A DNA stretch of 20,485 bases from the IMG/VR virus record IMGVR_UViG_3300028392_000344, positions 1 through 20,485 of that record. One strand, written 5' to 3'. Numbering within the stretch: position 1 is the first letter of the stretch; the number at the start of each line of letters is the position of its first letter. A program made the translations under genes and the position numbers. Under the pieces are notes generated by a model that saw nothing but the letters and a program-made list of their open reading frames with translations, was not told the origin of the DNA and made no database searches. Below are positions 5,126 to 14,261 of this stretch, piece by piece. Source of the stretch: a virus.

Positions 5126-5133
5126 TATTTATG
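5126..5133 (-). promoter_or_regulatory. Late-promoter-like box CATAAATA before the structural gene
   Basis: CATAAATA on the minus strand ends 5 bases before the ATG at 5120 and differs from the T4 late consensus TATAAATA by one base. Late expression suits a structural gene, but the spacing would place +1 at about the start codon. The 14 bases up to and including the ATG match those before the HNH gene at 13 of 14 positions. Confidence 0.5.
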
Positions 5134-5149
5134 CATTTTTACTCGGTAG

Positions 5150-5746
5150 CTAACTAGCATATCTGTTTGATTTGGTACGGTTATCAATTTGCCACAGGGG
5201 TTGCAGATTGGAATAACGACTTAGTATTAAAATCTCTTTTTCAGATTTAGCCCAAGATAACGGAATAATATGGTCAATTTCCCATAAATTCATATTTTCC
5301 CACGACATCCCGCTATTAAACTGTTTTTCTATATGTGTATAAAAATTATCAAAAGAACATCCTAATATTTCGATAGTTTTTGTTTTTTTCGATAATTTGC
5401 CAGCATTGATGGCCCGTCGAATATTCTGCCTAACTCTTTTCTTTAAAGCGAATAACGGATCTGTTTTTAATTTGTTTGCCTGATAATTGCGTTGATATTC
5501 TCGATATTCAACAATGTTTCGTTTCTGCCAAGGGGTGCCGGATTTATCGTAAGATTTATATTGAGCTTTTTCGCTAATGTCTTTGCCAGGGTTTGCTCTT
5601 ATCCAGCACTTAATATTCTCTTGTTCTTTATTTTTTTCGTAATATGCTTTCCTATATGCACTTTTACAGGATTTACATTGATTTTTTCCTTTTACAAAAT
5701 CGCTTAAAGATTTTGATATTCCGCATGAGCTACAAGATTTATTCAT
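5150..5746 (-). CDS. Free-standing HNH homing-type endonuclease
   Basis: This 198-residue protein has an N-terminal zinc ribbon-like site (C5, C8, C24, C27) and a basic helical middle. The C-terminal HNH nuclease domain contains WEIDHIIPLSWAKSEKE (catalytic His at 159), then SNLQPLW (N180) and DNRTKSN. The order is H-N-N, as in many phage HNH enzymes. The GMSWENM stretch just before it is also typical of free-standing phage HNH proteins. The frame is open further upstream to 5908, but that part overlaps a conserved plus-strand gene and precedes the zinc motif, so MNKSCSSCG at 5746 is taken as the start. The gene is probably a selfish mobile element placed between two phage genes. Confidence 0.85.
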   Translation of the reverse strand: MNKSCSSCGISKSLSDFVKGKNQCKSCKSAYRKAYYEKNKEQENIKCWIRANPGKDISEKAQYKSYDKSGTPWQKRNIVEYREYQRNYQANKLKTDPLFALKKRVRQNIRRAINAGKLSKKTKTIEILGCSFDNFYTHIEKQFNSGMSWENMNLWEIDHIIPLSWAKSEKEILILSRYSNLQPLWQIDNRTKSNRYAS

Positions 5747-5750
5747 ACAA

Positions 5751-5758
5751 CTATTTAG
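5751..5758 (-). promoter_or_regulatory. Possible late-type box CTAAATAG before the HNH gene
   Basis: On the minus strand CTAAATAG followed by TTGT and ATG lies just before the HNH start. TAAATAGTTGTATG here matches TAAATATTTGTATG before the structural gene at 13 of 14 positions. It may be a late promoter element or a copied junction. Confidence 0.35.
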
Positions 5759-5784
5759 CGATATTTTACTATAAGTTTTTGGAA

Positions 5785-5792
5785 CATAAATA
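5785..5792 (+). promoter_or_regulatory. Late-promoter-like box CATAAATA, plus strand
   Basis: CATAAATA lies 23 bases before the ATG of the only plus-strand gene. A start near 5799 would give a leader of about 17 bases. No strong Shine-Dalgarno is seen in that leader. The box differs by one base from the T4 late consensus. Confidence 0.4.
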
Positions 5793-5815
5793 TCCCTTGC
5801 AAACACACCACATAA

Positions 5816-6193
5816 ATGAACGAAGAAATTTTTACTAAACTCACTGACAAATACCCGTTTATAACGCTGTGTGTTTACGCCGCCCAAGAATATGTAGGAA
5901 TCATACAAAATCGCGATGATATTATCACAACTATTTACGATTTTGGCTGTATTAACAACTTAGACAATAAGAAACAATTCCTGGAATTAGCCAATATTTG
6001 GTGGTGGGAAAGCAATAGATCCATACCTATTAATATCTTTTTAAAGCAAGATTGGGATCCATTTAAAATAACACTTCGTACTTTTATCAACAAAGATCTC
6101 GAAATTTTACATGGCCCAGTTTGTAGTTTATCCGATATGGCCCGCAAGAAAAGCAAGAGAAAATCTATTACTTTAGTTAGGCGTATGGAGTAA
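5816..6193 (+). CDS. Conserved small phage protein, unknown function
   Basis: This 125-residue protein is the only one encoded on the plus strand. It is divergent from the HNH gene and convergent with the DnaE-like gene, overlapping the latter's end by 21 bases. It contains an aromatic stretch, NIWWWESNRSIPINIFL (about residues 60-76), and a very basic end, ARKKSKRKSITLVRR. The sequence reads as a well-composed protein, and I recall similar proteins (WWWESNR...PINIFLK..W, ending KSKR+SITLVR) in T4-like cyanophages. No enzymatic motif is visible. The basic tail suggests nucleic-acid contact, which is inference. Confidence 0.75.
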   Translation: MNEEIFTKLTDKYPFITLCVYAAQEYVGIIQNRDDIITTIYDFGCINNLDNKKQFLELANIWWWESNRSIPINIFLKQDWDPFKITLRTFINKDLEILHGPVCSLSDMARKKSKRKSITLVRRME

Positions 6194-9053: not shown

Positions 9054-9896
9054 TTATTTCCATTCCAATTTTTCTTGAGTAAACGGATAGTTGGCTTCTC
9101 TATAGAATACTTTGCGTTTGGTTAAATGTCGTTTTGCGAATTTGCAGGTACTTGTGACGTCCCAAATTTCCACGTGATCTTTGTCTTCGGCCTTTCGTAT
9201 GCCTCGTCCAATTGATTGGATAACCCTAACAAATGATTTACCAGGCTCCACCAGCACAAGATTAAAAATACGGGGAATATTAATACCCACAGCAGCAACA
9301 CCATAGGTAGCAACAATAATTTTATCGTCCACATCAGCAACTTCTGCATATTCTTCATCACGTTTGGTTCCTTTTGTTGCGCCCGATACAAATACTGCTC
9401 GGTCGCCTAATAATTCTACTAGTGCGTGTCCTGCCGCTACACGGTCCACTAACACTAGCGTGTTGCCTGTTGCTTTAACTTTTTCTACAAGTGCGGCTAT
9501 TACAGCAAGCCTATCTTTATCTTCTAGCAAAAATTTTAATTCACTTTGATAATTCGCAAATTCTGCGTGGTCTATTAGCTGTACAACATTCACGTGACAT
9601 TGTGCTAATACACCTCTGTCCTGTAATTCTGATGCCGATAATTGATTGATAACTGGACCTAAACTGGCCTTGAGTGCTTGAAACTCATATGGTTCTTTAG
9701 GTACGGTGCCAGTAAGTCCCCAGCGAATAGGAATACGACTCATGACTGTTGTCATTAAATTTTTCAGGGCATCGGCTTTTGCCATATGACAATTTGATAC
9801 TACTGCCCCGTCTACTACATAGTTGTGATTGTTTTCTATATGTAAATTATATACTTCTGCCGGTTTAGTTATTTCAGTTTTTTTAATTAGTTTCAT
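9054..9896 (-). CDS. uvsW: UvsW-type DNA helicase, C-terminal half fused behind a split-intein C fragment
   Basis: The 280-residue product begins with a 35-residue IntC (MKLIKKTEITKPAEV...AVVSN). It then continues as helicase from CHMAKADALKN, the second half of the DECH box. The C-extein (245 residues) carries superfamily 2 motifs: GLTGT (motif III), VATYGVAAVGINIP (motif V) and QSIGRGIRKAED (motif VI). Joined to the N-half, it gives a 485-residue protein close to T4 UvsW (about 500), which reverses stalled forks and unwinds R-loops and D-loops. The ATG at 9896 lies inside the last codons of the endonuclease gene (14-base overlap). The frame is open to 9947, but the later ATG gives an IntC of standard length. 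Function requires trans-splicing with the product of 10799-11827. Confidence 0.88.
   Translation of the reverse strand: MKLIKKTEITKPAEVYNLHIENNHNYVVDGAVVSNCHMAKADALKNLMTTVMSRIPIRWGLTGTVPKEPYEFQALKASLGPVINQLSASELQDRGVLAQCHVNVVQLIDHAEFANYQSELKFLLEDKDRLAVIAALVEKVKATGNTLVLVDRVAAGHALVELLGDRAVFVSGATKGTKRDEEYAEVADVDDKIIVATYGVAAVGINIPRIFNLVLVEPGKSFVRVIQSIGRGIRKAEDKDHVEIWDVTSTCKFAKRHLTKRKVFYREANYPFTQEKLEWK
9792..9896 (-). other. Split intein C fragment (IntC)
   Basis: These are 35 codons ending in Asn before Cys+1. Block F is VYNLHIENNHNYVVDG and block G is AVVSN|C. The terminal Asn and the +1 Cys needed for splicing are present. The usual penultimate His is Ser here. The length matches IntC fragments of natural gp41- and NrdJ-type split inteins, which are about 35-45 residues. 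Confidence 0.88.
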
Positions 9897-10785
9897 ATAA
9901 TGCTTTAATTTTTCTTGCTGTATTGTCATCAAATCGTGAGTAATCAATATCTATATTTTGCAATCGTAGCCAATCTTGATCAGCTATAGTCACAGTATAT
10001 CCTGCTATTTTTGCCCACTCGTGCAATGCTATAATTTTTGAGTTAAATTTTTCGCCCACACATAATTCACGCGGTTTAACTTCGACTACTATTTTGTTTT
10101 GATGATCCACAAAGTCAACTATATAGACTTTTGTGATACCTTGTAAATTATATTTGATTCGCAATGTTTCATATTCGGCAGATTGATTAATAAATTGGTA
10201 TAACGCTTCCCAACTTGATCGGTAAGGCTTATTGTCGAATGTCGAATCCCAGTGGGTATTTCTGTTATTACTATTCGGGGTAAATTCCCCGTTTAATATT
10301 TTCTTTTTCATAATATCAGATCTTACTTGTTTATCAGCAACTGACATTTTGATCCCGTACATACCGTTGCTATAACCAGAATTTTTTTTACTAATTTTAT
10401 CTTTGACTGATTGCGGTCTAGGACTGAGTGTGCCTATATTTTGTCCTTTGGTGCCAGCATTCCACGGAGTACCAGTATTAAGGTTTTGTTTAATTATATC
10501 TCCATATTTTTCCTGAACTGCGTTGCCACCAATAGAGGATAACATAGCCTTAATCTCGTTAGTAGTGATTGACCCGTTTAGTAAGTTATCAATGTTACTA
10601 ACCCATAATATAGTTTTAGTGCTTAATAATCTTCTGCAAAATCTATCTTTATCATTATCAATCAAAGTTACTCCCGTCGATAACGTTATACTGTTGCCCG
10701 AATACGCAATAACTCTGGTAAGTTGATTATGGTCTATCATCTTAGCGTTAAATCGATCTATCATTTGTTGGGCTGACTGTTTCAT
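9883..10785 (-). CDS. Homing endonuclease, NUMOD3 plus PD-(D/E)XK type, nested between the uvsW halves
   Basis: This 300-residue protein has DNA-binding NUMOD3-like motifs in the middle (GTPWNAGTKG at 105-114; SGYSNGMYGIKMS at 136-148) and a C-terminal nuclease core. That core has RSSWEALYQF (E193), YIVDFV (D224) and VVEVKP (E235, K237), the E...D...ExK order of PD-(D/E)XK enzymes. Such enzymes (EDxHD and Vsr-like homing families) are known beside fractured phage genes and introns. It starts 13 bases after the N-half stop and its end overlaps the C-half start. A TATAAATA late-type box lies 24 bases before its ATG. Its likely role is to cut intein-less uvsW alleles and spread the insertion; the target site is inferred to be the DECH-box region. 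An HNH or GIY-YIG domain is not seen. Confidence 0.82.
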   Translation of the reverse strand: MKQSAQQMIDRFNAKMIDHNQLTRVIAYSGNSITLSTGVTLIDNDKDRFCRRLLSTKTILWVSNIDNLLNGSITTNEIKAMLSSIGGNAVQEKYGDIIKQNLNTGTPWNAGTKGQNIGTLSPRPQSVKDKISKKNSGYSNGMYGIKMSVADKQVRSDIMKKKILNGEFTPNSNNRNTHWDSTFDNKPYRSSWEALYQFINQSAEYETLRIKYNLQGITKVYIVDFVDHQNKIVVEVKPRELCVGEKFNSKIIALHEWAKIAGYTVTIADQDWLRLQNIDIDYSRFDDNTARKIKALYETN

Positions 10786-10798
10786 AAATACTTTCGCT

Positions 10799-11827
10799 TT
10801 AGTTAACTGTATTTATACTAGTATATATTATTTCGTGGTTTTTTGTCAATCTATCTGCCCGTATCCATCCATCGTTAGTTAAAAATTTATGGTTTCCAGT
10901 AACTTGTATTTTATTTCCATTGTCGAACTCCAAATCGTACATTTTTTCACTAGAGGAATTGGTTAAATTTATATGCTGTTTAACTACGATGTCGGTCTTA
11001 AATTCTTTTGTATCTTCTGAATAATTAATAACTGTATCGCCCGCTTTAATATCTTTGATTGCTACATATCCCGAAGGTGTTAAAACTTTACTATCAGCAG
11101 CAAAACATTCGTCAACCATGACACAAACAACGCCTTCGATAAAATCTTGAATAGTAACATCTGACCCAATTTTAGTATTTTTAAGTAAGATGTTTAAGGA
11201 TTGCCAAGTACAAATGGTATGTGTCTTACCCCATTCTTTTCTATCACCAAAGTAAACTCCCACATCCAATCCTAGTCCTCGATAGTCTTTTTCTGTTTGC
11301 GTGACTAACGATTTATTAGGAACAATTACAATAGTTCTGCCGTGGACTTCGCATCGCTGACTAAGTGCCGCGGTCATAATAGTTTTACCTGCGCCTGTTG
11401 CTACTTCCTGTATGCTTTGTGGATTTTCTAGAAAGTTGTTTACAATCTCCACTTGATAGTCACGAAGTTTAATAGGTTGGCCTTCCATAGGATGGCCTTT
11501 ACCCCAGTTGAGATGAACAAATGTATCTTCGGTTACTCTCTCAAAAGTAAAACTAGTAGAATAATCCCTTTGATCATCGAGTATGATGTCATAGTTAAAA
11601 CTTTCTAATATAGGAACAATCTCAGGTAGTAAGTTTGTATAAGTGCTGCCGCCCAATTGAAAATACGCTACTTTGCCATCCCAACGACCAAGTCTAACCG
11701 CAGGCAAATATCTAGCCCCTGGGATTTCATACTTGAAAGTATTGACCAGTTTTTTACGGGCGTCTAACTCAAGACCTTCTATTTTGATGTTAACTTCGTC
11801 TTTAATTATTATTGTAGCGGTTCGCAT
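10799..11827 (-). CDS. uvsW: UvsW-type DNA helicase, N-terminal half fused to a split-intein N fragment
   Basis: This 342-residue product comprises residues 1-240 (UvsW N-extein) and 241-342 (IntN). The N-extein has an N-terminal DNA-binding region (RLGRWDGKVAYF near 45-56), the Q-like motif LRDYQ (121-125), Walker A ATGAGKT (143-149), and TIVIVPNKSLVTQ (motif Ia). It stops at MVDE, the first half of the DECH motif II. The Cys that follows is intein residue 1. The ATG at 11827 is chosen over an in-frame GTG at 11833 because the promoter -10 ends only 8 bases before the ATG and +1 would fall after the GTG. After splicing to the 9054-9896 product, an intact DECH box forms. Confidence 0.9.
   Translation of the reverse strand: MRTATIIIKDEVNIKIEGLELDARKKLVNTFKYEIPGARYLPAVRLGRWDGKVAYFQLGGSTYTNLLPEIVPILESFNYDIILDDQRDYSTSFTFERVTEDTFVHLNWGKGHPMEGQPIKLRDYQVEIVNNFLENPQSIQEVATGAGKTIMTAALSQRCEVHGRTIVIVPNKSLVTQTEKDYRGLGLDVGVYFGDRKEWGKTHTICTWQSLNILLKNTKIGSDVTIQDFIEGVVCVMVDECFAADSKVLTPSGYVAIKDIKAGDTVINYSEDTKEFKTDIVVKQHINLTNSSSEKMYDLEFDNGNKIQVTGNHKFLTNDGWIRADRLTKNHEIIYTSINTVN
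10802..11107 (-). other. Split intein N fragment (IntN)
   Basis: 102 codons starting at Cys1. Block A is CFAADSKVLTPSG and block B contains QVTGNHKFLTNDGW with the TxxH-type T70/H73. The fragment ends at its own stop codon rather than continuing into an endonuclease domain. The size matches IntN of natural split inteins, which are about 90-120 residues. Confidence 0.9.
10810..10817 (-). promoter_or_regulatory. T4-late-type box TATAAATA inside IntN, ahead of the endonuclease gene
   Basis: An exact match to the T4 late consensus TATAAATA on the minus strand lies within the last IntN codons. Predicted +1 is near 10803, giving an 18-base leader to the ATG at 10785. T4 homing endonuclease genes are known to use late promoters of this kind, which supports the assignment. 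Confidence 0.55.
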
Positions 11828-13511: not shown

Positions 13512-14261
13512 TTAGCGGTGTATAAAGTTTAAGCTCTTGTCCAGCCAGGGTAAAACCAAGTCTTTTTGATGTAAGAATCCTCTAGCCATAACGGATTTAT
13601 CGGCGGATTCGGGTAATAATTTAGCGTCAACTAAGTCATACCAACGGGTAGTTTTAGGGTCGCGGGCTTCTTGATCGCTATTATATACTATAGCATACAG
13701 CCAATTGTCATTCAAATTCTTTTTAAAGAATCCTGCTTTACAATCCCACCCGGCCACGGCCAGCATATGGATAAGACTTACCATAGTATGATGATAATAG
13801 CATCCGTCTTGCTGAGTAAAATCTAAATCTTTTTGATAAATGTTGGTGGTTTGTGGAACTATTAGTACTAACATTCCTCCAGGCGCAGCAATTTTTCGCC
13901 AGTTAATAAGAGTTTGAATCGGATTTAATGCGTACTGAAACGCATCGTGACACCATAGTATGTCAAAACCTTTATCAAAAGAATGTAAGGCTCCTTCAAA
14001 ATCAGCTTGTTGATAAGTCATGTTTATATGTTTAGATGCTAAAGGCAAGTTTTCTAAAATGTCAATACCTTGACATTTAATATTTAAAGGTGCTGCTTGT
14101 TCATCATTGGTAGTGCGTGATGCCCACCATTCTAAATCTTGACTAGAGCCACATCCTAAATCGGCCACAGTACCTATAGACAACATAAAATCGTCGTATT
14201 TGTATAATTGATTTAATGTTTCTAAACTATGCTTGTGTGATTCTTCTATATTTCTAAACAT
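13512..14261 (-). CDS. Class I SAM-dependent methyltransferase
   Basis: This 249-residue protein has a Rossmann-type methyltransferase core. Motif I is VADLGCGSSQD (32-42), the acidic end of strand 2 lies in CQGIDIL (64-69), QADFEG is near 85-90, FDILWCHDAFQY is at 99-110 (motif IV region), and APGGMLVLIVPQ is at 126-137. No DNA-methyltransferase DPPY/NPPY motif is present, so the substrate is more likely a small molecule, protein or sugar; this is inference. The start shares a base with the uvsY stop (TAATG). It is the last gene of the uvsX-uvsY run and is followed by a terminator. Confidence 0.82.
   Translation of the reverse strand: MFRNIEESHKHSLETLNQLYKYDDFMLSIGTVADLGCGSSQDLEWWASRTTNDEQAAPLNIKCQGIDILENLPLASKHINMTYQQADFEGALHSFDKGFDILWCHDAFQYALNPIQTLINWRKIAAPGGMLVLIVPQTTNIYQKDLDFTQQDGCYYHHTMVSLIHMLAVAGWDCKAGFFKKNLNDNWLYAIVYNSDQEARDPKTTRWYDLVDAKLLPESADKSVMARGFLHQKDLVLPWLDKSLNFIHR

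Follow-up and report, generated by a model that had tools for sequence, protein, structure and literature searches.

Fractured genes, described in Dassa 2009, are reportedly genes broken by split inteins with a free-standing endonuclease gene (gp41-1 and NrdJ-1 among them), and they are said to comprise eight enzyme types and to include a Vsr-like (EDxHD) endonuclease family. The window, a 20.5-kb virus fragment (IMG/VR record IMGVR_UViG_3300028392_000344, 20,485 nucleotides), features such an arrangement in the phage helicase gene uvsW, where three minus-strand open reading frames (ORFs) make up the split locus. Like the fractured genes of Dassa 2009, the locus is a conserved DNA-metabolism gene that a split intein has broken in two, an endonuclease gene lying between the parts, and its N-terminal intein fragment (IntN) resembles those of gp41-1 and NrdJ-1. 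It differs from them in that the gene is uvsW, the insertion site is motif II, and the product of the putative homing endonuclease gene (HEG) is nearer to TnsA than to the Vsr-like type. Other described systems share single features with the window. Pseudomonas phage MIJ3 PolB is a split intein from an isolate with an HNH endonuclease gene between the halves (PMC6892783), however, it lies in another gene, has Ser1-type blocks and uses an HNH nuclease. In the haloarchaeal MCM-d intein the invaded alleles have Ser at the +1 position, the uninvaded alleles mostly have Pro, and the +1 residue is co-converted (PMC10643990); this intein is archaeal and contiguous, whereas the window features a phage split intein with a Val to Cys change within helicase motif II. 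In T4 I-TevI and segB and in Aeh1 mobE a late promoter within a hairpin delays the endonuclease (PMC2988022). The window likewise has a late-promoter-like sequence in a hairpin over the endonuclease translation start, but its hairpin is located between IntN and the HEG in a split gene, includes the start codon, features bases resembling a ribosome-binding site in the loop, and is known here from sequence.

The locus is a genuine fractured-gene member in uvsW and very likely a working mobile split intein. It is best explained, with a probability of roughly 0.88, as a mobile split-intein element at motif II of phage uvsW that would act by trans-splicing and by homing with an imported Cys. The parts of the locus are listed in coding order.

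11827-10799, minus strand: ORF of the uvsW N-half and IntN, 342 residues.
11108-11827, minus strand: uvsW N-extein, 240 residues, Walker A through MVDE of motif II, assigned from the translation and from matches to the UvsW structure and helicase families.
10799-11107, minus strand: IntN, 102 residues and a stop codon, with Cys1, block A and block B (TGNH), assigned from profile matches and residue conservation.
9883-10785, minus strand: HEG, putative homing endonuclease of 300 residues, PD-(D/E)XK-like with E193, D224, E235 and K237.
9896-9054, minus strand: ORF of the C-terminal intein fragment (IntC) and the uvsW C-half, 280 residues.
9883-9896, minus strand: overlap of the HEG stop and the IntC start, 14 nucleotides, ATGAAACTAATTAA.
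9792-9896, minus strand: IntC, 35 residues, blocks F and G, C-terminal VVSN.
9054-9791, minus strand: uvsW C-extein, 245 residues, with Cys+1 (9789-9791) as its first residue.

The ORF translations agree with an earlier note on this DNA, in which the helicase N-half ends at MVDE and runs into Cys1, block A, block B and a stop codon, a separate gene begins with a 35-residue IntC ending in Asn followed by Cys+1 and CHMAKAD, and an endonuclease gene lies between the halves in the same direction. The joined exteins give 240 + 245 = 485 residues, as that note had counted. The 14-nucleotide overlap suggests that the HEG and the IntC gene are translationally coupled. In the proposed mechanism the half-proteins would be made separately, and IntN and IntC would associate and trans-splice MVDE to CHMA, forming a 485-residue UvsW in which DECH replaces the native DEVH. 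The HEG would cut an intein-less uvsW in co-infection, and repair off the invaded copy would insert the IntN-HEG-IntC block together with a few dozen flanking bases; since these bases are copied with the block, the Cys required for splicing at the +1 position would travel along.

The intein parts are recognized by TIGR01445 (40.4 bits, cut-off 24.5), TIGR01443 (23.2 bits, cut-off 15.6) and PF14890 (37.6 bits, cut-off 35.8), so that the comparison with intein collections puts all three over their curated cut-offs. In IntN, C1 and the block B residue H73 are present in 48/48 sequences and T70 in 46/48; in IntC, Met1, His24 of block F and Asn35 are each present in 46/46. For IntN, the HEG and IntC, comparison with diverged relatives gives a ratio of nonsynonymous to synonymous substitution rates (dN/dS) far under 1, with dS near saturation in some pairs. 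By these alignments the splicing residues are nearly invariant and all three parts of the element are under purifying selection. The IntN profile matches the gp41-1 and NrdJ-1 structures. A Hint fold was found in the predicted model of a natural fused intein from the relative L008, which served as a stand-in for the IntN-IntC pair of the window; the model has a predicted local distance difference test score (pLDDT) of 91 and matches the DnaB, gp41-1, NrdJ-1 and Npu DnaE inteins.

The best solved-structure match of the helicase is T4 UvsW (1rif and 2oca, with expectation values, E, of 6e-8 and 2e-7). The helicase also matches PHROG 16 DNA helicase; Pfam ResIII and DEAD are above cut-off and UvsW_N is slightly under it. 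The joined exteins are thus UvsW-like by structure and family matches, as had been proposed, and feature a Walker A motif (TGAGKT) and a DExH box. In scans of IMG/VR this layout recurred at an identical site in dozens of contigs, and removal of repeated contigs left 88 intein loci and 192 intein-less loci, among which close copies remain, so events are not independent. The intein-less loci, a comparison that the earlier note had suggested, include the intact L020. Their third motif II position is Val in 190 and Ala in 2 (DEVH or DEAH), and Cys, the Cys+1 of the intein, is found there in 88/88 intein loci and 0/192 intein-less loci. The earlier reading that joining the halves restores DECH exactly is therefore wrong for the lineage of the window: judging from these loci, its native motif is DEVH and Cys+1 enters with the intein. 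DECH is native in the T4-like phages T4, JD18 and phiR1-RT, so hosts of the S16 type (Salmonella phage S16, discussed below) required no residue change.

Comparison with two loci points to a recent arrival of the element. At the nucleotide level the window and the intein-less L020 are ~94% identical in the exteins, which differ at 83 of 1458 positions, and ~94-97% identical in the adjoining kilobases. Against L006 the extein DNA is 79.6 and 79.5% identical and the flanks 67-76%, whereas the element itself is 97.7% (IntN), 98.4% (HEG) and 100% (IntC) identical. An extein tree from which the insertion region was omitted shows a scattered distribution of the intein and places the window as the sole intein carrier within a starred set of nine, and this tree needs 23 state changes, at least 20 of which are forced by starred branches. 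On these comparisons the element is horizontally and recently transferred. Next to the insertion site lies one further feature.

9747-9791, minus strand: probable conversion tract, 45 nucleotides, with 15 differences to L020 and 1 to L006.

Upstream of the insertion site the window follows L020 and not L006, and the tract is probably the result of one-sided conversion from an L006-like donor.

Of 51 HEG sequences, 49-50 have the residues E193, D224, E235 and K237. The predicted structure has a pLDDT of 87, and the structural neighbours of its C-terminal half are TnsA (Z 7.8), Vsr (Z 5.2) and I-Bth0305I (Z 4.8). These Z values are middling, and together with the conserved E/D/ExK residues they support a PD-(D/E)XK nuclease. 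A sequence search of the HEG against solved structures gave no match. Of the earlier assignment as NUMOD3/PD-(D/E)XK, the second part is supported by the E/D/ExK residues and the first is weak; a profile search for NUMOD3 detected none in the HEG of the window at E <= 1, and in the S16 HEG homologue NUMOD3 scored 19.6 bits, slightly under the cut-off of 20.4. Relatives of the window HEG were also observed between two gene pieces of phiR1-RT terL (L341:1396-4245) and of CP20 phoH (L004:463-3438), which ties this nuclease family to further split genes.

The DNA ahead of the HEG features a candidate control element with two arms.

10809-10817, minus strand: TATAAATAC, late-promoter-like octamer and 5' arm of a hairpin, before the HEG.
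10783-10791, minus strand: GTATTTATG, 3' arm of the hairpin, whose final three bases are the HEG start codon.

The late-promoter-like CATAAATA sits inside this start-codon hairpin, upstream of the HEG. The sequence [CT]ATAAATA or a near match precedes the HEG in nearly all of the 42 loci with an intact HEG, and in the window and 35 relatives the octamer is 32 nucleotides ahead of the start codon and pairs with GTATTTATG. Across the 35 relatives with the same spacing 306 of 315 cells are paired, all nine pairs are kept in 29, and the hairpins of five relatives fold better than most shuffles. Both sequence and pairing thus place a late-promoter octamer in a hairpin over the translation start of the HEG. 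The nested octamer probably delays HEG translation, as in T4 I-TevI and Aeh1 mobE, and with uvsW-C downstream, this switch could time the completion of the helicase. It is possible, if somewhat doubtful, that only a late promoter lies ahead of the HEG and that the hairpin arises incidentally from the richness of the sequence in A+T. More loci retain the octamer than retain the complete stem, the near-constant 5' arm confines covariation to U-A/U-G changes, and the window hairpin alone folds no better than shuffles, all of which would fit a promoter without a hairpin function. Such a promoter leaves unexplained that every pair of the stem is kept in most of the same-spacing relatives, that the bases directly 5' of the ATG are conserved without a promoter reason, and that I-TevI, segB and mobE have the same layout. 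Where CATAAATA occurs near a gene start in these loci, the gene is mostly the HEG, which does not establish the sequence as a general late promoter of these phages. Elsewhere in the window a possible late-type promoter was observed at 5785-5792 (plus strand), where CATAAATA is ~31 nucleotides ahead of an ORF of 125 residues (MNEEIF...), and another at 5126-5133 (minus strand), where CATAAATA is close before an ORF beginning MYSTEV. A sigma-70-like TTGACA-18-TATACT upstream of the HEG was dropped, since the region has 14 such hits where 11.9 are expected.

The fold of the window hairpin weighs against the mobile split-intein explanation, as do the following points. The penultimate IntC residue of the window is Ser and not the usual His; across the family this residue is Ser, Ala, Thr or Glu, and His is found only in S16 and PM2. 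The contrast in the conversion tract has a P of 1.5e-9, a value that assumes independent sites and an interval that was picked after looking. Additionally, no family-wide rise in synonymous identity by the insertion site was found among the intein loci, which leaves a single comparison as the basis for the tract; any older tracts have been erased or are lacking. A wider reading is offered tentatively, in which the element would be a self-timing invader of the helicase active site that brings its own +1 Cys by co-conversion, times the C-half through the promoter and hairpin switch, loses its HEG and re-fuses in cis in some relatives, and is joined in some phages by a second split intein that would make UvsW a product of three polypeptides.

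A decayed passenger, in which the intein still splices but the HEG no longer works and inheritance is only vertical, is very unlikely. The HEG is lost or shortened in L008, L026, L061, L152, L153 and L260, which is what such decay would leave: L026, L152 and L153 are still split and have lost the HEG with its final codons visible, and L061 features a longer HEG remnant. In the window, however, the HEG is intact, its active-site residues are conserved, its dN/dS is ~0.1 against diverged relatives, and it remains nearly identical to the HEG of L006 although the exteins differ by 20%.

A gene in pieces without splicing, in which the HEG broke uvsW, the halves assemble non-covalently and the intein-like tails are relics, has a precedent in Aeh1 NrdA with mobE (PMC2988022, PMC10448857) but is highly improbable here, where the residues for splicing hardly vary and purifying selection acts on both intein fragments. 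The re-fused relatives also argue against it. L008 is a single ORF of 625 residues that lost its HEG through a deletion of roughly 0.9 kb, and its IntN-IntC linker is the short old 3' end of the HEG read in another frame; L260 features a second, different fusion in an ORF of 632 residues. Each is represented by one metagenomic contig. Both are fused yet keep all splicing residues, and a normal helicase would form there only via splicing. That a continuous intein only looks split through misassembly or a frameshift error, as the metagenomic source of the contig and the continuous intein of two relatives might suggest, has a negligible probability and is rejected, since the same stop, HEG and IntC start recur in dozens of contigs and in the isolates S16 and PM2, where the fractured-gene arrangement named in the earlier note is likewise found.

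Isolates that carry the element are Salmonella phage S16 and Proteus phage PM2 and also, by match positions, STP4-a and near relatives. The uvsW genes of S16 (gp114, gp114.1 and gp115), STP4-a and PM2 have the same split site as the window, with 58-63% identity in IntN, 51% in IntC and ~40% in the HEG. They differ from the window in that their exteins are 23-29% identical to it, S16 and PM2 retain the penultimate His, and DECH is native in T4-like relatives. The isolate loci are annotated as helicase, hypothetical protein and helicase, and PHROG 16259 corresponds to the N piece with IntN, 9690 to the IntC piece with the C half and 22417 to the HEG. The split arrangement of uvsW was therefore present earlier in GenBank and the PHROGs, apparently unnamed. 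A distant UvsW (L149:2868-3860, 26% identity) was observed with the same motif II split and a related IntN (63%), which suggests a spread over widely different phages. No near DNA match of the window was found in phage records. A literature search yielded no split intein in UvsW. Dassa 2009 may count uvsW among its eight enzyme types; among the examined publications that name both UvsW and an intein, none places an intein in UvsW.

Some relatives are fractured twice. A second split intein interrupts Walker A, between GAGK and T, in L091 (1444-5732), L094, L124, L126, L128, L137, L152 and L153; it consists of a short IntN and an IntC of ~135 residues and has an endonuclease gene to itself. The closest solved relative of this IntC is VidaL (6vgv, E 1.5e-4), which likewise combines a short IntN with a long IntC; this likeness applies to the relatives and not to the window. 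The short Walker A IntN of L126 and L128 (1770-2993) continues in frame into its endonuclease, in L126 as an ORF of 553 residues, and by its layout this form is an intermediate between split and continuous inteins. In L144:13-2025 a continuous LAGLIDADG intein with Ala and not Cys as its first residue occupies the same Walker A site, and the motif II intein is split. From these layouts the doubly fractured loci would make UvsW from three polypeptides with two different split inteins.

Fractured genes as a kind are known; new are the location in motif II of uvsW, the import of Cys+1 together with its tract, the relatives that are re-fused or fractured twice, and the HEG control element. Motif II of uvsW is thus added as a fractured-gene site, and the family features the life stages of a split intein (empty, fractured, HEG-less and re-fused) with a closely similar pair of empty and filled loci. 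The locus indicates that an intein can import its own +1 residue and that a ready-made Cys, Ser or Thr at the target is not required. The relatives with two split inteins provide a natural test of three-piece assembly and new split-intein pairs for protein engineering.

Two other minus-strand ORFs of the window were observed. The ORF at 5150-5908 is free-standing, HNH/endonuclease VII-like and beside a structural gene, and is possibly another homing endonuclease. The ORF at 13512-14261 encodes 249 residues with a methyltransferase-like reading and is without a PHROG match.
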